The notes under the pieces: model-generated | The model's input: the letters and a program-made list of their open reading frames with translations, nothing else | Databases searched by the model: none | Told to the model about the DNA's origin: nothing | Shown here: positions 7,800 through 22,811 of the stretch, piece after piece | Position numbering within the stretch: the first letter of the stretch is position 1 | Layout of the letters: every line of letters begins with the position of its first letter | Position numbers and translations under genes: made by a program | IMG/VR virus record: IMGVR_UViG_3300044911_000197 | Span: 1 to 27,650 of that record | Source: a virus | DNA: 27,650 nucleotides | Strand: one strand, 5' to 3'

Positions 7800-8377
7800 A
7801 GATCAAATTCATTATAGTCTTTTAAACCATCTTGTTGTTGCTTTAAAAGAACACTTTTATAATACTGTTTTCTACTTTCAAGTCTTAGTTTTTTTGTAGG
7901 GTCAACTACAATATAAGTATTCCAGTTTTCAGGATAGTTCTTAGCAACAGATCTTTTAAAATCTCTATTGGCAACAAACTTCCACAACTCTCTATTCTTC
8001 ATCTTATGTTTTATTGCAAAACTTGTAAAGAATATCTTAGCCAATTTACCATCTGTTTCCCAATTCTTATTTGTAACTCTTACACCATATTTCTTGGACT
8101 TAGCATAATCAATATTCTCTTTCCTACTATTGTTACACGTACCAATAAAAATCCAGCCTACAGAGTTAGGTAATTGCATACCATCTCTTGTATCTATTAC
8201 TTTTGTCCAAACACTTTTATTAAAAGATCTGATGACCTTCTTTAATGTGTCATTATCCACATTCTTGTATCTGGGATACTTTTTTCTAAAACTATCAAAG
8301 AACTCTTTGTTCAACATAGTATGTACTTTGGGTCTGTATCTTGGACCTGTTAGATCCGGACTTTTAAATTCATTCAT
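7796..8377 (-). CDS. Conserved crAss-like structural-block protein, possibly IHF/HU-like
   Basis: A 193-residue basic protein. It begins with helices (FFDSFRKKYPRYK, TLKKVIRSFNKSVWTKVID), followed by GMQLPNSVGWIFIG (66-79), a strand-turn-strand region with VTNKNWETDGK (101-111), and LWKFVANRDFKRSVAKNY (131-148). The order of helix pair, 'LP..G' strand, extended beta arm and a terminal F/R/K segment resembles the HU/IHF layout. Genes called IHF-subunit-like have been described in crAss-like structural blocks. It may bind DNA, or be a ring component that borrowed the fold. It is the first gene of the tail operon, after a terminator and a candidate promoter. No individual HU signature residue is secure, so the IHF label is tentative, although that this is a real gene is near certain. 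Confidence 0.45.
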   Translation of the reverse strand: MNEFKSPDLTGPRYRPKVHTMLNKEFFDSFRKKYPRYKNVDNDTLKKVIRSFNKSVWTKVIDTRDGMQLPNSVGWIFIGTCNNSRKENIDYAKSKKYGVRVTNKNWETDGKLAKIFFTSFAIKHKMKNRELWKFVANRDFKRSVAKNYPENWNTYIVVDPTKKLRLESRKQYYKSVLLKQQQDGLKDYNEFDL

Positions 8378-8415
8378 ACCATATAGATTAATATACTAAA
8401 AATTATGCACTTTAG

Positions 8416-8423
8416 CAAATATA
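8416..8423 (-). promoter_or_regulatory. Candidate Bacteroidota-type -7 promoter element for the tail operon
   Basis: The minus strand reads TATATTTG, an exact match to the Bacteroidota -7 consensus TAnnTTTG, 38 bases 5' of the ATG at 8377. It lies just downstream of the terminator U-tract (8429), where a new promoter would be expected. No TTG is found at the usual -33 distance, where the terminator hairpin lies instead, so this could be chance in AT-rich DNA or need a phage-specific factor. Confidence 0.35.
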
Positions 8424-8428
8424 GTAAT

Positions 8429-8459
8429 AAAACAAAACCCCCGCGAGTGCAGGGGCTTT
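8429..8459 (-). terminator. Rho-independent terminator after the fibre / cysteine-rich gene block
   Basis: On the minus strand an 11-bp stem (AAAGCCCCTGC with GCGGGGGTTTT, two G-U wobbles) closes a 4-base loop. It spans 8434-8444 and 8449-8459 and is followed by GTTTT. It lies 37 bases after the stop of the 181-aa gene and separates that block from the tail operon. It would also form the 3' end of the candidate small RNA at 8468-8492. Confidence 0.85.
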
Positions 8460-8467
8460 GCCTTGTT

Positions 8468-8492
8468 GTCACAGAAACCAACAAACTGTAAC
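8468..8492 (-). ncRNA. Candidate 3'-UTR antisense small RNA: hairpin loop complementary to three start-codon leaders
   Basis: On the minus strand, GTTACAG (8492-8486) pairs with CTGTGAC (8474-8468), giving 7 bp with one U-G, and encloses an 11-base loop TTTGTTGGTTT (8485-8475). The loop is the exact reverse complement of AAACCAACAAA, which lies 1-2 bases before the ATGs at 12867, 19719 and 22716. With the closing G (8486) the match to the 22716 leader extends to 12 bases. The element starts 3 bases after the stop of the 181-aa gene and is followed 8 bases later by the Rho-independent hairpin. A stem-loop with an exposed seed plus a terminator is the usual build of a 3'-UTR-derived regulatory RNA. 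Alternatively, it is a DNA or protein-binding copy of the same motif in inverted orientation. Confidence 0.4.
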
Positions 8493-8495
8493 TTC

Positions 8496-9041
8496 TTAGA
8501 ATATTAAAACAGCTCTTAGTCTAACTGTTGCACCAGATGGTCTTGTAATATTAATTGTAATTAAACCAGTAACATCATCTACTGATACAACATAATATGC
8601 TGTTGGAGATTCATATGGTTGTATTAATCTCCAAGTAGAACCTGCTAAGTACCATAGACTGATTACAAAGTCAGAGTATTCAGATCCATCTAAACTACAA
8701 TATGATGGTGTGATACCACAAGCTGCTAATTCTGCTTGTGTAATTGTTAATGTAGTTTGATCAAAGTCTGTATCAATTTCTTTAATATATCTTAATTTTT
8801 GTTGGGTTAGTTCTTCACAGAAATAATCAACAACATTATTTAAAGCTGTAGCAACATTAGTATCAGTAGATACAACAGTGTCAAGTCCACAGTCAATGTC
8901 TGCACCAGTATAGATAATACACTGTGCGTCAAATACTTCAGAACATGGCTCCGGATCTGGGCAACCTGCTGGCGTAGGACATGGTGGAAGAGTTACTAAT
9001 GCATCTTCACATCCACAATTTTTACATTTATTAATTGACAT
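8496..9041 (-). CDS. Cysteine-rich virion-type protein sharing an N-terminal module with the adjacent fibre protein
   Basis: A 181-residue protein. The N-terminus holds a dense cysteine stretch (Cys 6, 9, 11, 21, 27, 33, beginning KCKNCGCED) that could be a small metal-binding knuckle. Residues 32-75 contain PCSEVFDAQCIIYTGADIDC, which aligns with PCSPISSNCVIWQGPDIPC in the neighbouring 554-aa protein; a predicted helix ending in Cys follows in both. The C-terminal half is beta-rich, with TAYYVVSVDDVTGLITINI and a terminal strand pair. The shared module may anchor both proteins to the same virion site. It is the last gene before the terminator at 8429-8459. I do not recognise a named family. 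Confidence 0.6.
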   Translation of the reverse strand: MSINKCKNCGCEDALVTLPPCPTPAGCPDPEPCSEVFDAQCIIYTGADIDCGLDTVVSTDTNVATALNNVVDYFCEELTQQKLRYIKEIDTDFDQTTLTITQAELAACGITPSYCSLDGSEYSDFVISLWYLAGSTWRLIQPYESPTAYYVVSVDDVTGLITINITRPSGATVRLRAVLIF

Positions 9042-9053
9042 ATCTTTTTAGTA

Positions 9054-10718
9054 TTATGGACAAACAGTTGAGAATCCAGTTTCAGTATTACATGGGTCTA
9101 CATAAGCTACTAGACCATCAATTGAAAAGTTAAATCCTCCAATTTGGTTTTCATCACCAGCATCACATGAGAATGGCCATGTTAAATTAAATGTATCTGA
9201 TACTAATGGAAAGTTAGCATTAGACGGTGCATTATGAATATCTGATCCAGTACCAATATAGTTAGGTAAATATTCACCAACTCTTACATTACTTGTAACT
9301 AATCTTAGTGGTGAGTTACCTTGGATACCAGCACCTCTTGTTGATGTAATTTCTATATCATGAACTAGTTGAACTGTCAATCCTTTTGTTGATGTAACAA
9401 AAACTCTAATTGCTGATGTTAAACATGTACCGTAGGTAGGATCAACATCAATAGATCTAAGTGCTACATCCCATGCTTTATAATAACTATTATCTAAGTT
9501 TCCTGCTGTAACAGAAGGTGGAATAACAGCTCCTCCATTATTAAATAAAATTGCACCGTTAGCATTAATACTACATCCACCTGGACCACTCCATGTTGTA
9601 CATCCTGCTACAGAGTTATATGCACCAGTAGATGTTAATGGAACAACACTTCCTGGAGATGAAGGATTCTCTAATGGAACATATACAGTTCCTCTAAAGT
9701 GAATTTGATTTCCAATTCTTCTACACTGCGGTCTATTTACTCCTGAATAATATGCAAATCCTTGAAGATCTACCCAACCAGTATCTGTAATATTTGCTGT
9801 AATAACATTACCTGTATTATCTAGATTTACAGTTGCTGTGTTAGCTACTGTAATTGAGAATGTACTTACATAGTTATATACATCACAAATAGCAATCCAT
9901 AAGTTATTAATAGCATCTGCTGCTGTAGAAAGATTTGATGATATTACCCATGTTCCAGCATAAGCTACAGAGAACGCTGTACCAAATACAAGTGATGTAT
10001 CAGCATCTGTAATACATTGTGATAGTACTGCTGCAGTAATATCTGATGCTTCTCCTGTTGCAGACTTTAATGTACAGTAACCATAAGTACCATCATTGAT
10101 TAAAGCATTTAAAACTGTATCAATAGGATAGTTACCCGGTGATACTACAGTTCCACTAAGAGTACAGTTTACAGGAATAGATGGTAATGTAAATACTGGA
10201 GCTGGTGCTGATTCAAGAGCAGTAACTCTAAGATCTAAATTTGTAATGCTTGCTTGAATAGTTGCAATTTCTGTAACTAAAGAACATACTTTTTTTCCAA
10301 TTTCTATAGCATATTCTGAAACTGTCATTACAGTAACTCCATCTACTATAAAACAATTTGCAACAGTAACCGGAGTATCTGCTCCTGTTGATTTAGTTGT
10401 GTTCACAATTGAACTTGTAGCTGGGTCAGCAAGTGTATCAATCTCAGTTTGTAGTGCACAAATTCTATCAATTAAGAATTGAATAAGTGCTTGAAAATCA
10501 TTTGGAGGACATGCAACCAAATTAAAACATGACAGATCATAGTTTGTCACATTTAAAATATCTAGAACTGTACATAATTCTGTAGCCAGTTTAGCAACAA
10601 CATCTGATACAGTGTCACCTGTGCAAAGTTTAATGCACGGAATATCTGGTCCTTGCCAAATCACACAATTAGATGAAATTGGACTACAAGGTTTATTATC
10701 TAAGTTCAAAGGTTTCAT
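9054..10718 (-). CDS. Fibre-like tail or head appendage protein
   Basis: A 554-residue protein. It has an N-terminal cysteine module with CVIWQGPDIPC (18-28) and a helix VSDVVAKLATELCTVLDIL (38-56). Further helical segments follow, including a heptad-like coiled coil at about 141-170 (SLVTEIATIQASITNLDLRV), and then alternating beta segments. From residue 314 comes a segment typical of fibre C-termini: GWVDLQGFAYYSGVNRPQCR and GNQIHFRGTVYV, the 'GW..l......rpq.R..gn.v..rG' pattern seen in phage fibre and tip domains. The C-terminal 200 residues are Gly/Ser/Thr/Asn-rich, as expected of a receptor-binding tip. It follows the 646-aa repeat protein after 19 bases and precedes the related 181-aa protein. 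A trimeric fibre is inferred; which virion part it decorates is unknown. Confidence 0.65.
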   Translation of the reverse strand: MKPLNLDNKPCSPISSNCVIWQGPDIPCIKLCTGDTVSDVVAKLATELCTVLDILNVTNYDLSCFNLVACPPNDFQALIQFLIDRICALQTEIDTLADPATSSIVNTTKSTGADTPVTVANCFIVDGVTVMTVSEYAIEIGKKVCSLVTEIATIQASITNLDLRVTALESAPAPVFTLPSIPVNCTLSGTVVSPGNYPIDTVLNALINDGTYGYCTLKSATGEASDITAAVLSQCITDADTSLVFGTAFSVAYAGTWVISSNLSTAADAINNLWIAICDVYNYVSTFSITVANTATVNLDNTGNVITANITDTGWVDLQGFAYYSGVNRPQCRRIGNQIHFRGTVYVPLENPSSPGSVVPLTSTGAYNSVAGCTTWSGPGGCSINANGAILFNNGGAVIPPSVTAGNLDNSYYKAWDVALRSIDVDPTYGTCLTSAIRVFVTSTKGLTVQLVHDIEITSTRGAGIQGNSPLRLVTSNVRVGEYLPNYIGTGSDIHNAPSNANFPLVSDTFNLTWPFSCDAGDENQIGGFNFSIDGLVAYVDPCNTETGFSTVCP

Positions 10719-10737
10719 ATCTATAATATACTAATTA

Positions 10738-12678
10738 TTAATTAGAATTACAAGTCTTTAGAGTATTACAACCACATGCAGTTTGACCACATCCACAAGA
10801 GGATTGAGTACAACCACAAGTTGATTGACCACAACCACAAGCAGGTACTTCACATGCATATAGTGGATCTCTTAAAGCTTGTAAATCAATTAATTGTTTT
10901 TTAATTAACCATTTATCATTTTCTTCAGGACAGCAGTTACTAATACCGTATCTAAGTTCTAGTACTGACTTGTATAAAATCTCTGAAGATTTACATGTTA
11001 TTTTCTCATACTTCTCTGTACTACAGATAGGAGTTACATAACCAGGTTGTACAGATCTTTTTGGATAGATCTGTGGAGGACATGTATGAACATCATTAAT
11101 TAATGTACAATCACCAAAATACTCTACATAGTCTGTAGGATAAGATGATAACCAATGTGCCATACAGATTCTTTCTGATCTTTCTCCTGAAAGTAATGTT
11201 ATTGTTTGTACAGTTCCTTCACAATCTAGATAATCATAGTTATGAGCTATTGTGTCATGATTCTTTATTCTAGAACATATACATGGAAAACTAGTAAGAC
11301 AGTCTAAACATGTATCAAACTCTTGTGATATATCTCCAATAACACCGGCATTTAAACTTGATTGAGATATTGCAACACTCCAGCATATTGTTGGACACCA
11401 CTCAAGAGTAATAACTTGACCTACATAAGCTGATAGATCTGTTGAAGTAATTACATCAGCTTCAATATCTGCACAATCTGAAAGAATATAGTATATAGTC
11501 TTACATGCTTCACAATCATCAAATGCTTCTGTAACTGTAGTAGGTACATCTGAAGGAATTGGATTTGGATATTCATATACAATCCAGCATCCAGGACAGT
11601 CATTACCTAATTGAACAACTTGATCTACATATGCACTAAGATCAGATGACGTATAGATAATTGCATTAGAATCATCACAGTTTACAAGTTTATAATTTGG
11701 ATCTGGATTACATTCTTCACATGAGTTGTATGCTTGTAGTACAACAACATCAATGGCACAATCACAGTCTACAACATTGTTAACTATCCAACAGTTGTCA
11801 TATCCTTGGATTTGAACAATTTGTCCAAGTATAGCATATGGAGATAATGATTGATCAGTAGAATAAATTGGATCTAAAATTCCATCACAGTCTATTAGTT
11901 CAAAACATTGTGAAGGACATAAACCATCTACACAGTCACCGTGGTTTGTAATACTTAAGTTTGGTCCAGGAGACGGATTTGTAAATGGGTATACTCTAGA
12001 ACAATCTTTCCAGTAACCATTTACAAATGTACTTACTGGATTACCATCACAGTCTACATATTCTAACTTTGCAGATCCTATAATCTCATAACACTCACAA
12101 TTACAAGTACATGGTATATCAGCATCTACACCAACAATAGTAATTGCATTAAGGCAATCTGGTGCAAGGGTGACCATATAACAATCAAATCCACCATCTG
12201 CAGTTACCTGTATTAATACACTAGTTCCTACATATGCTGATAAATCTGAATCAGTTGTAAATGGTGGAATACTACCATCACATGAATATAATGTATAACA
12301 TTGTGCTACACAATCTGGACAGAAGCCTGGAGTAGCATCAGTACAAGGATCTTCATACGTTGTTGTACTATCCCAAATATAATTACCTCCAAAGTTTGTA
12401 GGAATAATATTTAAATTACCATAATTAGTTCCATTAATTGGACTTGTAGGATCAGAAGCCAGACCTCTAAATATTCTATAACATTGATTTGTTAAAGGAA
12501 CATAAGTATTAGTTAATGGATCATAACCAATTGCTGGAGGACCATTGTAAATATTAATACCTAATTCAGGTGCAGCAGTAGTACTATTAAAACTAAAGTA
12601 TAATATATTTCCTCCACAACAAGGTTCAAAACCAAAGAATGTTGCTGATTGTCCAGGAGGAGGAGGAAATGTTGTCAT
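10738..12678 (-). CDS. Cysteine-rich tandem-repeat virion-type protein
   Basis: A 646-residue protein built from two kinds of beta-rich, cysteine-containing repeat. Type A has the core 'Y.L..CD......Y(T/S)..DLS.YVGQVV.L......CW.V', often ending in 'aFdsCe.C'. Copies lie at about residues 127-180, 258-323, 329-392 and 396-460, including SSDLSAYVDQVVQL and STDLSAYVGQVITL. Type B, at about 197-254 and 468-535, has 'Y.DC.G', then 'GDC', then 'CP'. A helix KWLIKKQLIDLQALRDPLYA leads into a C-terminal cysteine knot with four CGC triplets (614-637). The Pro-rich start is MTTFPPPPG. The repeats resemble those in environmental phage appendage proteins. It is probably a surface or adhesion protein next to the fibre genes; no enzymatic motif is seen. 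It starts 3 bases after the 61-aa zinc-ribbon gene. Confidence 0.65.
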   Translation of the reverse strand: MTTFPPPPGQSATFFGFEPCCGGNILYFSFNSTTAAPELGINIYNGPPAIGYDPLTNTYVPLTNQCYRIFRGLASDPTSPINGTNYGNLNIIPTNFGGNYIWDSTTTYEDPCTDATPGFCPDCVAQCYTLYSCDGSIPPFTTDSDLSAYVGTSVLIQVTADGGFDCYMVTLAPDCLNAITIVGVDADIPCTCNCECYEIIGSAKLEYVDCDGNPVSTFVNGYWKDCSRVYPFTNPSPGPNLSITNHGDCVDGLCPSQCFELIDCDGILDPIYSTDQSLSPYAILGQIVQIQGYDNCWIVNNVVDCDCAIDVVVLQAYNSCEECNPDPNYKLVNCDDSNAIIYTSSDLSAYVDQVVQLGNDCPGCWIVYEYPNPIPSDVPTTVTEAFDDCEACKTIYYILSDCADIEADVITSTDLSAYVGQVITLEWCPTICWSVAISQSSLNAGVIGDISQEFDTCLDCLTSFPCICSRIKNHDTIAHNYDYLDCEGTVQTITLLSGERSERICMAHWLSSYPTDYVEYFGDCTLINDVHTCPPQIYPKRSVQPGYVTPICSTEKYEKITCKSSEILYKSVLELRYGISNCCPEENDKWLIKKQLIDLQALRDPLYACEVPACGCGQSTCGCTQSSCGCGQTACGCNTLKTCNSN

Positions 12679-12681
12679 AAT

Positions 12682-12867
12682 TTATTTTTTATATCTATCT
12701 TTTCCCCAAACTTGATTTGTTTGAGATACTGTTGCTGTTGTTTTTCTTTGAGTTAGTCCTGCTTCATATGTTTTAACACATCCTGAACATACAGTTTTAC
12801 CATCTGATGCTGTTCTTTTCTGACACCCACATGATAGTTTCTTTTTACAGTTTGGACAATTTGCCAT
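12682..12867 (-). CDS. Small zinc-ribbon protein
   Basis: A 61-residue basic protein with CPNCKKKLSCGC (4-15) and VCSGC (26-30). These paired CxxC-type knuckles should bind one zinc ion, possibly with extra cysteines. The C-terminus is polar and ends in WGKDRYKK. It lies between the 186-aa and 646-aa genes, with gaps of 19 and 3 bases. Its CGC element resembles the CGC triplets at the C-terminus of the 646-aa protein, so the two may act together. The leader before its ATG contains the shared 11-mer AAACCAACAAA. Its function is unknown; a chaperone or assembly cofactor is possible. Confidence 0.7.
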   Translation of the reverse strand: MANCPNCKKKLSCGCQKRTASDGKTVCSGCVKTYEAGLTQRKTTATVSQTNQVWGKDRYKK

Positions 12868-12868
12868 A

Positions 12869-12880
12869 TTTGTTGGTTTT
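12869..12880 (-). promoter_or_regulatory. Shared leader motif AAACCAACAAA before the 61-aa gene
   Basis: The minus strand reads AAAACCAACAAA one base before the ATG at 12867. This is one of three exact copies of the 11-mer adjacent to start codons in the window. The gap from the upstream stop is only 19 bases, so the motif occupies most of it. It acts in mRNA, if at all, as a ribosome-binding leader or an antisense target. Confidence 0.5.
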
Positions 12881-13447: not shown

Positions 13448-13456
13448 AGGTGTTTA

Positions 13457-13498
13457 ATAAAAAAAGGGGATAGGAGTTTGTAACTCTTCTCCCCTTTT
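13457..13498 (-). terminator. Rho-independent terminator after the 563-aa virion gene
   Basis: On the minus strand AAAAGGGGA (13498-13490) pairs with TCCCCTTTT (13470-13462). After a small internal loop there is an inner GAGTT/AACTC stem, and a T-run (TTTTTTT, then ATT) follows. It begins 23 bases after the 563-aa stop. It should set the level of the 186-aa gene and beyond relative to the abundant upstream gene. Confidence 0.8.
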
Positions 13499-13520
13499 AG
13501 ATTTTTATTCTTCTTTACTC

Positions 13521-15212: not shown

Positions 15213-15232
15213 TTTTTCTAAGTTTTAATTAA

Positions 15233-15275
15233 TAAATATATACTATAATATAGTGAAAGTTTTTAAAACTTCCAA
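15233..15275 (-). promoter_or_regulatory. Candidate promoter/operator region upstream of the 563-aa gene
   Basis: The 65-base gap contains the perfect 13-base palindrome ACTATAATATAGT (15242-15254). On the minus strand two -7-like boxes can be read: TATATTTA (15233-15240), differing from TAnnTTTG in its last base, and a weaker TATATTAT (15245-15252) that lies 20 bases after a TTTTG (15277-15273). An inexact GGAAGTTTT/AAAACTTTC inverted repeat without a T-run lies between. The gap has the features of a regulated promoter, but AT-rich DNA makes chance matches likely. Confidence 0.35.
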
Positions 15276-15277
15276 AA

Positions 15278-18702: not shown

Positions 18703-19719
18703 TTAAGAGTTCCAAAATTTCTCACAGGCTTTGTTGAGATCTGTTAGAACATCTTCATTTAAAGGGTTCTTTAAGTATTCAACTACATCTGACACGTTTC
18801 TTCCTAATAATGCATTAGTCTTAGCATGGTAGATGTAACCATCAGCCTTATTAATAATATACTTAAAAAATACGGAATCTCTAACAATTGATTTAATTTT
18901 TAGTGTTTCCATATCTAAGTTTACAGCTTCAAGGAAAGACTTAGCAGCTCTTTCTTTGTTGCTTTCAACTCCTTCTCCATTAATGTACAAGTCCATATTC
19001 TCATACATAACATCATTAGGAGTTGACTTTCTATATTGTGTACTGTTACCATCTACTACTTTAGCTACATAGAATAGTTTAGTACTGTTCTTGTCAAATA
19101 ATTTCTGAAGTTCAGAAAGTGCTTTGTTGCGCATTTTCTTGTATTCAGTTCTTGCAATAACTGTCTGTTCTTGTTTGTCTAAGTAGAACTTAGGTGGAAC
19201 AGCTCTTGATCTTGCATCATCAAAACTTTTTGCTACAATAGAAAAACCACCAGCTTCAATAGCATAAAGTTTAATTCTATCATATGGATCATTGGGATCT
19301 AAGAATACAGGTTCATTACCACAAGCAATATTAATTCTATTCCAGAATTCTTTATTGTCAGGCTTAAGTAATTTTACTTTATTCCAGAACTGAGGATCCT
19401 CAACATCTAGAACATTTGCTGCTAACTCTGTTTCAAGTTCAGCAATAGCTGTTCTAATTTCTTTAATTCTTGCTTCTTTGTCTTCACCTTTTAGAAGTTT
19501 AATCTCTGGTGCAAATTCATTTAGACCTGTGAGATATCTAATAACTCCATTTTGCTCAAGACAAGCAAGTTGTTCAAAGTGCTTAACTCCATCATATAGA
19601 GATAAGCCATAAGATTCTAGTCCCATATTAGAGACTGAGTTGTCAAAGAACGGACGGACTGCAATTGCTGTTTTTTTAACTGTGCCGTGTCCAGTTTCTA
19701 CCATTGTGAAATTTTCCAT
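18703..19719 (-). CDS. Structural-block protein of unknown function (338 aa)
   Basis: A 338-residue protein, mostly helical and charged. It opens with MENFTMVETGHGTVKKTAIA. A short coiled coil lies at about 79-97 (DKEARIKEIRTAIAELETEL), and a long basic helix is seen near residues 185-210 (EYKKMRNKALSELQKLFDKN). The C-terminus pairs a beta hairpin (FFKYIINKADGYIYHAKTNA) with helices ending in KACEKFWNS. I recall related proteins in other Bacteroidota phage structural blocks but no assigned role. It lies between the major capsid gene and the basic-protein cluster, after a strong terminator. It has its own leader with two tandem copies of the AACCAACAAA element and a TATATTTA box, so it is probably independently controlled. 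Confidence 0.55.
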   Translation of the reverse strand: MENFTMVETGHGTVKKTAIAVRPFFDNSVSNMGLESYGLSLYDGVKHFEQLACLEQNGVIRYLTGLNEFAPEIKLLKGEDKEARIKEIRTAIAELETELAANVLDVEDPQFWNKVKLLKPDNKEFWNRINIACGNEPVFLDPNDPYDRIKLYAIEAGGFSIVAKSFDDARSRAVPPKFYLDKQEQTVIARTEYKKMRNKALSELQKLFDKNSTKLFYVAKVVDGNSTQYRKSTPNDVMYENMDLYINGEGVESNKERAAKSFLEAVNLDMETLKIKSIVRDSVFFKYIINKADGYIYHAKTNALLGRNVSDVVEYLKNPLNEDVLTDLNKACEKFWNS

Positions 19720-19721
19720 GT

Positions 19722-19754
19722 TTTGTTGGTTTTATTTTTTGTTGGTTAAATATA
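19722..19754 (-). promoter_or_regulatory. Leader with tandem AACCAACAAA motifs and a -7-like box before the 338-aa gene
   Basis: The minus strand carries an exact AAACCAACAAA 2 bases before the ATG at 19719 (motif 19722-19733). A second near-copy, TTAACCAACAAA, lies 5' of it (19738-19749). Overlapping it upstream is TATATTTA (19747-19754), a near match to TAnnTTTG, immediately after the major capsid terminator. The order terminator, -7-like box and start recurs at 8416-8459. Confidence 0.45.
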
Positions 19755-19757
19755 AAG

Positions 19758-19784
19758 AAAAAAAGGGAGGAGTTTCCCCCTCCC
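19758..19784 (-). terminator. Strong Rho-independent terminator after the major capsid gene
   Basis: On the minus strand GGGAGGGG (19784-19777) pairs with CTCCTCCC (19772-19765), giving 8 bp with one G-U, across a GAAA tetraloop; seven Ts follow. It lies 18 bases after the capsid stop. This is the cleanest terminator in the window and suits a very abundant late transcript. Confidence 0.9.
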
Positions 19785-19802
19785 TATCCTTTCTAGTTTA
19801 GA

Positions 19803-21447: not shown

Positions 21448-22716
21448 TTAAAATCTCTTGAACAAATTATTTGGTCTAGAGAGTGTTCTTTGCGGTTTAT
21501 TACCTGCTCTTCTTGGTTCATCAGATTCTTGAACACCAGAAGAAGTAATTTTTCTTGCCTCTTCAGTTTTCAATTGTCTAACTGTTTTTTCTACAGCAGC
21601 TTTAGAACCTTGATCTTTAATTCTACTTTTATATCCATCTGGATCAGAAAGTAACCAAAGAGCTTCTGAAATTAAATCATGTCTTGGTTCTACAAACTGA
21701 TACTTTTCTAGAAGGTGTCCTAATAAATTAGTTTGTCTTCCTGAAATAGATGGATAACTTGGTTGTACTAATCCTGAGTATAACATACTCTGAGTTTTCT
21801 TATCAAGTTTAATTCCATTTAGCTCTCCTGAAACAAGAGTATTATATACATTCTCAGTATATACTCTAGCTTGTTGAGCTTGTTGTTCTTTCTTGTGTTC
21901 TTGTTCTGCAAGCTTTCTAGCCACAACTTCTTCTTGCATTCTGTCTAACTTCGGTTTAAACTGTTGAGCCTTTTGCTCTAGTCTACCCATGTCAGCCCAG
22001 TCATTGATCTCTGCTTCAATCTCTTCTGGTGTACCAAATCTTGTAGCATATAAGTATTGTCTTGCAATCTCTGCTTGATCATACTCATTAGTTGGATCAA
22101 GATCAATTACTTCTTCTACTTCTGCAAGAGTTCTAAAAAGAGATTTAAGATCTGTACCACCGTCAGCTACATACTTAGCTGCTACTTGAAGTTCTTCAGG
22201 AAGAGATTGAAAGAATTCTCTTGGAGTAGATTCTCTTACTTTGTTCTCTCTTTCTTGGAAGTTAGCTTCAAATAGTTCTCTAAAATCTTTGGTAGTATAT
22301 TCTTCTAATGGTTTATCATCATCAAAAGGAATAAGTGTACCTTCTTCAATCATTTTAAGAGCTAACTCAGAAAGACCTGACTTATCTACTTTAGGTCTTC
22401 CTTTGTTTCCAGTCTCCTCTTCTTGACTGATCATGTCATCAAGTTGAGCAATTGCTTCTTCTACTTGTTTAGTAGAAGGTTGTGCTGCTGCATCATCAGA
22501 ACTATCTGCTGATTTGTCAAGGAACGTGGTGTCTAAATCCTGTGGTTTTGAAAACACAGACTTTGGACTGTCATCTGAACTATCTTCTCCTGCCGGTAAC
22601 ATTACATTATCTGCACCTGGCATCCCAAATAGTTCATCAATATTTACATCTACCTGGCCTACCGTTGTAGTATCCAGCACCTGATCTTCCTCAGGATTTT
22701 TTGTTGGTTCTGCCAT
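21448..22716 (-). CDS. Putative capsid scaffolding protein
   Basis: A 422-residue, highly charged protein between portal and major capsid, the usual place for a scaffold. Residues 1-110 are acidic and probably disordered (DEDQ-rich, with DSSDDSPK and KSADSSDD). The middle is helical (FRELFEANFQERENKVRE; PREFFQSLPEELQVAAKYVA). A long coiled coil covers about 250-285 (KLDRMQEEVVARKLAEQEHK). The C-terminal 60 residues are basic and end in RRAGNKPQRTLSRPNNLFKR, suitable for capsid docking. No protease motif is seen. The leader has the AAACCAACAAA motif one base before ATG, so scaffold translation may be specifically controlled. The role is inferred from position and composition. Confidence 0.6.
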   Translation of the reverse strand: MAEPTKNPEEDQVLDTTTVGQVDVNIDELFGMPGADNVMLPAGEDSSDDSPKSVFSKPQDLDTTFLDKSADSSDDAAAQPSTKQVEEAIAQLDDMISQEEETGNKGRPKVDKSGLSELALKMIEEGTLIPFDDDKPLEEYTTKDFRELFEANFQERENKVRESTPREFFQSLPEELQVAAKYVADGGTDLKSLFRTLAEVEEVIDLDPTNEYDQAEIARQYLYATRFGTPEEIEAEINDWADMGRLEQKAQQFKPKLDRMQEEVVARKLAEQEHKKEQQAQQARVYTENVYNTLVSGELNGIKLDKKTQSMLYSGLVQPSYPSISGRQTNLLGHLLEKYQFVEPRHDLISEALWLLSDPDGYKSRIKDQGSKAAVEKTVRQLKTEEARKITSSGVQESDEPRRAGNKPQRTLSRPNNLFKRF

Positions 22717-22717
22717 G

Positions 22718-22729
22718 TTTGTTGGTTTT
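22718..22729 (-). promoter_or_regulatory. Shared leader motif AAACCAACAAA before the scaffold gene
   Basis: The minus strand reads AAAACCAACAAAC directly before the ATG at 22716. Twelve bases (AAACCAACAAAC) are complementary to the hairpin loop and closing base at 8475-8486, the longest match of the three leaders. The rest of the 95-base gap (22730-22811) is AT-rich, with a CTATATAG palindrome near 22793-22800 and no clear -33/-7 pair or terminator. Confidence 0.5.
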
Positions 22730-22811
22730 GTTTATAATTTAATATACAAATTAAACTTCAAATATTTAAAATGGGCTTGATAATTTTTTGGACTATATAG
22801 CTATCCATTAT

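Follow-up and report, generated by a model that had tools for sequence, protein, structure and literature searches.

The antisense RNAs of the RNA-OUT/RNA-IN (IS10), CopA/CopT, Sok/hok, and RNAIII/RNAII systems are encoded opposite their targets. In phage P22, control of scaffold synthesis is exerted by a protein; the scaffolding protein itself autoregulates scaffold synthesis. Phage regulatory RNAs have been reviewed recently, and a 2025 review of phage small RNAs covers OOP, aQ, VpdS, PreS, 24B_1, and PAK_P4as15 (PMC12197685); the words 'crAss' and 'capsid' are absent from its text, and no regulon shared by scaffold and post-capsid genes was seen in its passages. No published description of a system such as the one considered here was found in the open-access literature, which is weak negative evidence, and post-transcriptional control in crAss-like phages is, as far as could be found, essentially undescribed.

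The locus considered here is a hairpin in a crAss-like phage that probably serves as an RNA switch on the production of three proteins. Unlike RNA-OUT, CopA, or Sok, one hairpin faces three leaders that lie 4-14 kb away, and the complementarity is confined to a loop of about 11 nt. A cis-encoded antisense RNA of the RNA-OUT, Sok, or OOP type was considered and rejected, because the targets lie elsewhere, 4-14 kb off and on the same strand. The hairpin resembles RNA-OUT, CopA, Sok, and RNAIII in that a stable hairpin loop, often with a YUNR motif (PMC6562991), pairs with a ribosome-binding region.

The late block, the hairpin, and the leaders

The window, which is the whole 27.65-kb stretch of DNA that was analysed, is part of a crAss-like phage. 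Its portal, major capsid, and large terminase proteins match PHROG head families, Pfam recognises two tail ring proteins (CrAss_Ring_1 and CrAss_Ring_2), and Crassvirales records share about 25% identity with the terminase; a near-identity search of phage records with window positions 8000-12000 returned no match. The main genes are on the minus strand, and the hairpin and its three predicted targets run in the same direction within one block of about 14 kb. The features discussed are as follows.

8429-8464, minus strand: intrinsic terminator directly after the hairpin, seen in the fold and also behind the hairpin in relatives
8468-8492, minus strand: putative regulatory hairpin with stem GTTACAG/CTGTGAC and loop UUUGUUGGUUU at 8475-8485, indicated by the fold, by relatives, and by stem covariation
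8496-9041, minus strand: 181-aa gene whose 3' UTR holds hairpin and terminator (8429-8492); relatives vary in the gene and keep the hairpin
12682-12867, minus strand: zinc-ribbon-like protein of 61 aa, predicted target, with conserved cysteines (CxxC..CxC..CxxC)
12869-12879, minus strand: leader of the 61-aa gene, AAACCAACAAA, an exact match 1 nt before the ATG at 12867
18703-19719, minus strand: predicted target, a 338-aa protein whose gene follows that of the major capsid protein
19722-19732, minus strand: leader of the 338-aa gene, AAACCAACAAA, an exact match 2 nt before the ATG at 19719
19738-19748, minus strand: second copy upstream in the 338-aa leader, TAACCAACAAA, a near-match
21448-22716, minus strand: probable scaffolding protein of 422 aa, predicted target, placed between portal and major capsid
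22700-22710, minus strand: second scaffold site, GAACCAACAAA, 10-of-11 complementary, lying beyond the ATG in codons 3-6
22717-22728, minus strand: scaffold leader AAACCAACAAAC, directly before the ATG at 22716, complementary to the loop and to one further base, in the stem

On the minus strand the 181-aa gene is followed by GAA-GTTACAG-TTTGTTGGTTT-CTGTGAC-AACAAGG.. and then by a GC-rich terminator. Positions 8492-8468 (GTTACAG-TTTGTTGGTTT-CTGTGAC) form 7 bp, one of them G-U, around an 11-nt loop that contains a YUNR (UUGG) U-turn motif. The minimum-energy and centroid folds (-34.4 kcal/mol, z -4.3) both contain hairpin and terminator stem, and 0 of 200 shuffles reach that energy; the 7-bp stem, 11-base loop, and Rho-independent terminator named in the original prediction are all there. 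The terminator, whose tail is TTTTGTTTT, was overlooked by a simple terminator scan, and it would be common to the candidate hairpin RNA and the upstream 181-aa mRNA. No promoter for the candidate short RNA was recognised, and Rfam, at gathering and permissive thresholds, gave nothing credible (the best hit was rnk_pseudo, at 28.7 bits against a cut-off of 55).

Other signals are scattered through the late block. A TATATTA-type box stands upstream of the scaffold, 193-aa, 554-aa, and 563-aa genes (22729-22760, 8378-8400, 10719-10737, and 15213-15277), is conserved in relatives before the scaffold and 193-aa genes, and may be the late promoter element of the phage. Further hairpins with T-runs that resemble intrinsic terminators occur at 19720-19802, in the gap between the capsid and 338-aa genes, and at 13448-13520, in the gap between the 563-aa and 186-aa genes.

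The sequence AAACCAACAAA occurs exactly four times in the window: once at 8475 on the plus strand, as the complement of the loop, and at 12869, 19722, and 22718 on the minus strand, 1-2 nt before the ATGs at 12867, 19719, and 22716, so that the exact complement predicted before three start codons is borne out. The motif is of low complexity; with one mismatch or fewer there are 12 matches in the window against 1.5 (sd 1.3) expected, and 0 of 100 shuffles reach 12. The 12-base match described for the scaffold is present, with the qualification that its 12th base pairs with a G of the stem and not with the loop. The original prediction had also counted 10-of-11 matches elsewhere in coding DNA as a caveat; the near-matches TAACCAACAAA and GAACCAACAAA sit in the leader or start of a target. 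The name 'scaffold' is positional, since the 422-aa protein has no PHROG or Pfam match and its structure model is mostly helical and of low confidence; a PDB fold search with the model of the 338-aa protein gave no match at E<=0.001.

Conservation of loop, stem, and leaders

Inner-clade relatives comprise 80 loci from a search with the 563-aa protein and more from a second search using a divergent member. A GUUGG search anchored on the neighbouring 193-aa gene had no failures; the hairpin precedes the terminator in 62 of the 62 first-search loci that reach the 181-aa/193-aa junction (43 distinct sequences), and it is retained in one relative (L127) whose upstream gene is strongly diverged. Among distinct inner-clade leaders an AACCAA core is found in 42/42 for the scaffold, 54/54 for the 338-aa gene, and 62/63 for the 61-aa gene, or 158 of 159 leaders of the three target families, as against 0 of 583 leaders of 17 other families from the same loci, the major capsid gene among them. 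The core mostly ends 4-7 nt before the ATG. Two copies of the motif lie within 50 nt in 59% of inner-clade 338-aa leaders, and a further complementary site is found in the first codons of 30% of the scaffold genes. Loop and leaders are conserved together in these relatives, and the match therefore exceeds chance.

Six long relatives (100-118 kb, in the 100-122 kb class) carry one such hairpin each. When the duplex energy of the loop was computed in each against all 109-141 gene starts, the three targets fell within ranks 1-8: ranks 1-3 in two genomes, within 1-4 in two, 1-5 in one, and 1-8 in one. The real loop was among the best 2-4 of all 120-165 rearrangements of its G/U letters, and those that did as well or better carry that core in a shifted position. 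Good scores in single genomes also go to a few other genes, including several small ones on the opposite strand, which are possible additional targets. One gene of 64-67 aa, opposite the late-block strand, has a loop-matching leader in L085 (near 11117), L107 (near 14705), and L095 (near 17054), and is a possible extra target.

The stem turns over while the loop stays. Across all lineages, 45 distinct hairpins use 27 different 4-bp stems to close the loop, with compensatory changes; each of the five loop-proximal stem pairs occurs as 5-6 standard pair types, and the loop core UUUGUUGGUUU is almost invariant, an invariance that in the outer clade is partly a result of selection because those hairpins were sought by GUUGGU or UUGG. 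In a formal count over eight distinct 7-11-7 hairpins, 100% of cells are paired and both sides change in 4 of 7 pairs, measures of covariation that 0-1 of 500 shuffles matched.

Outer-clade relatives, obtained by capsid-anchored searches, show roughly 66-88% capsid identity. Most of those in which the end of the fibre block is readable have the hairpin and terminator, on stems that include AATGTTTAG, CACTGG, AGAGGG, GTCTGG, AGCGG, and TGTTACG. AACCAA is kept in 71-82% of automatically called leader starts, some of which are miscalled; automatic first-ATG starts are wrong for some genes, such as the 61-aa homologue of L224, and were corrected only where stated. In two members (L297 and L251) the leaders read AAACCAAAC, and 7 contiguous pairs and a bulge remain. 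Contigs of this phage group, L174-L180, are binned in MAGs of Chitinophagaceae, Bacteroidales, Campylobacteraceae, and Patescibacteria, bacteria so different that the binning gives no host identity. In several outer-clade phages among L305-L322 coding sequence of a similar kind lies upstream of the matched 193-aa homologue, a pattern that tandem copies of the 193-aa gene could produce.

A distant clade, kin of Leptolyngbya phage Lbo-JY46 with capsids about 28% identical, has the hairpin before a terminator in G073, G074, G075/G076, and G078, and variant hairpins in L182 and L187. Its scaffold-position and post-capsid genes have AAACCAA-type leaders, and the target leaders are among the better-pairing ones, not always the best. 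In the gut crAss-like phages cr130_1 and cr50_1, in Bohxovirus, and in Lbo-JY46 itself there is no TTGTTGGTTT and no such hairpin, and in Flavobacterium phage FpV4 there is a single TTGTTGGTTT, outside such a hairpin; the leaders read in all of these lack the motif.

The original prediction held that loop and leader motifs should change together, and one lineage, L224, clearly shows it. Its loop is UUGGUUGGUACU; ACCAACCAA stands in its scaffold and 338-aa leaders, and, once the start is corrected, ACCAACUAACCAAC in that of the 61-aa gene. Its three leaders (scaffold, 338-aa, 61-aa) pair with their own loop at -13.7, -13.7, and -11.1 kcal/mol, compared with -9.0, -9.0, and -9.9 for the consensus loop. 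Beyond L224 the evidence for co-change is suggestive. In L304, with a loop similar to that of L224, the scaffold leader fits its own loop better (-12.8 versus -9.0 for the consensus loop) and the 338-aa leader fits it worse (-8.5 versus -12.4). In L187, with loop UUUUGUUUGGUUUU, own-loop pairing is better for the scaffold and zinc-ribbon leaders and worse for the third. Elsewhere, because the loop is almost invariant, changes are small and without matching leader changes (L084, L075, L076, and L058), and to L084, L075, and L076 the expected co-variation does not extend.

Loss is also joint. L194 and L199 keep the block-end terminator and have no hairpin, and their scaffold leaders, like the 61-aa leader of L194, carry ACAGAAG, as in L196, where the junction is unreadable, the leaders of this lineage having changed to AAAACAGAAG; L199 still has a single AAACCAACAC, displaced, ahead of its 338-aa homologue. 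Where the junction is readable, no group of relatives was found that keeps the leader motif without the complementary loop, a pattern named in advance as one that would speak against the element. The AAAACAGAAG motif in L194, L196, and L199 may be a replacement control element. A replacement hairpin complementary to AAAACAGAAG was sought in the L194 lineage and rejected; the matches in the stretches read are not loops before the kept terminator.

Proposed mechanism and alternative readings

Base pairing of the loop with the three leaders is well supported by these comparisons; we further infer repression, late timing, and a free short transcript acting in trans. The likely reading is that an antisense RNA element, encoded in the 3' UTR of the gene that precedes the late-block terminator, keeps ribosomes from starting translation of the scaffold and two other proteins. 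The stem would present the loop 5'-UUUGUUGGUUU-3' single-stranded, next to the intrinsic terminator, and the loop would pair with A/C-rich leaders (consensus AAAACCAACA) just upstream of the three start codons. A YUNR motif can form a U-turn and speed pairing in other antisense RNAs (PMC6562991). The resulting duplex of 8-11 bp, a few nucleotides before the AUG, should block initiation because the end of the core is about 4-7 nt from the AUG, within the ribosome footprint. Flavobacterium johnsoniae, which initiates without Shine-Dalgarno sequences, needs adenines at -3, -6, -12, and -13 and little structure around the AUG, and more generally initiation in Bacteroidota is tuned by leader adenines and by little structure near the AUG (PMC6847099). 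The RNA would accumulate when transcription reaches the end of the block, and the turn-down of the scaffold and its two partners would therefore be late. Action in trans is argued because one hairpin per genome faces three separate sites.

A broader proposal, modestly favoured, is that this is an old regulon of environmental Crassvirales, in which one 3'-UTR hairpin RNA per genome silences the scaffold and two partners through a near-invariant 11-nt loop and so sets the stoichiometry of capsid assembly or ends head production; it would have persisted down to about 28% capsid identity, and at least one lineage would have lost the whole of it.

The same pairing could have the opposite effect, with the RNA protecting or activating the leaders; it might, for instance, guard the 5' end of the scaffold mRNA against decay. 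About 15-20 nt upstream of the scaffold leader motif, both in the window and in many relatives, lies a TATATTA box, so the motif may adjoin an mRNA 5' end and a duplex there could be stabilising. This reading is judged unlikely, as in nearly all targets the core ends 4-7 nt from the AUG, inside the initiation footprint, and the 61-aa target lies inside an operon and not at an obvious 5' end.

Rated lower still is pairing in cis on one long late transcript, between leader and 3' UTR, as a closed-loop mRNA, or through coupling of termination and translation, with no free small RNA. Although targets and hairpin are co-directional in the block of about 14 kb and the hairpin is always directly at the terminator, three sites for a single hairpin in each genome suit a trans-acting RNA better, and terminator-like hairpins break the block, for instance before the 338-aa gene.

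That the leader motif is a translation enhancer or a protein-binding site, with coincidental complementarity to the loop, is very improbable. A-rich leaders do favour initiation in Bacteroidota (PMC6847099), and a low-complexity motif suits this reading, but the motif is confined to three families (158/159 versus 0/583) and absent from the capsid gene, and the loop stays complementary although the stem has turned over completely, with one co-loss. Scarcely credible, finally, is the idea that the loop is kept because it forms a local pseudoknot with the CAACAA that follows the stem, and that it matches the leaders as a by-product: in the window GUGACAACAAGG can pair with loop UUGUUG, but the tail varies (inner-clade forms are AACUGG, AACGGG, and AAAUGG, and L267, L180, and L203 have unrelated sequence) while the loop is conserved, the GGUUU half of the loop and the exclusive motif of the leaders are left unexplained, and an H-type pseudoknot is largely refuted by the lack of a conserved downstream strand that pairs with the loop.

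Significance and relation to known regulatory RNAs

The antisense reading describes a small, defined circuit of one loop and three leaders, with sharp predictions for compensatory mutants, and the balance of scaffold and capsid is its obvious biological use. If true, it would give an RNA answer to the classical question of scaffold balance in head assembly, and would do so in hosts whose translation does not depend on Shine-Dalgarno pairing. Unannotated phages can also be screened for the element by its loop, a simple marker.

Among known regulators the locus has two marks of a trans-acting sRNA: a conserved structured RNA with its own terminator, and a single-stranded seed that is complementary to several targets and conserved together with them. 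It is like bacterial sRNAs derived from 3' UTRs in its place between a stop codon and an intrinsic terminator, its short conserved seed, and its several targets, and unlike them in being phage-borne, with targets in the same phage block. With OOP, aQ, VpdS, PreS, 24B_1, and PAK_P4as15 it would share the base pairing of a phage RNA with phage or host transcripts (PMC12197685). The proposed outcome is that of the P22 system, namely feedback on scaffold synthesis, and the difference from P22 is that the proposed effector is an RNA rather than the scaffolding protein.
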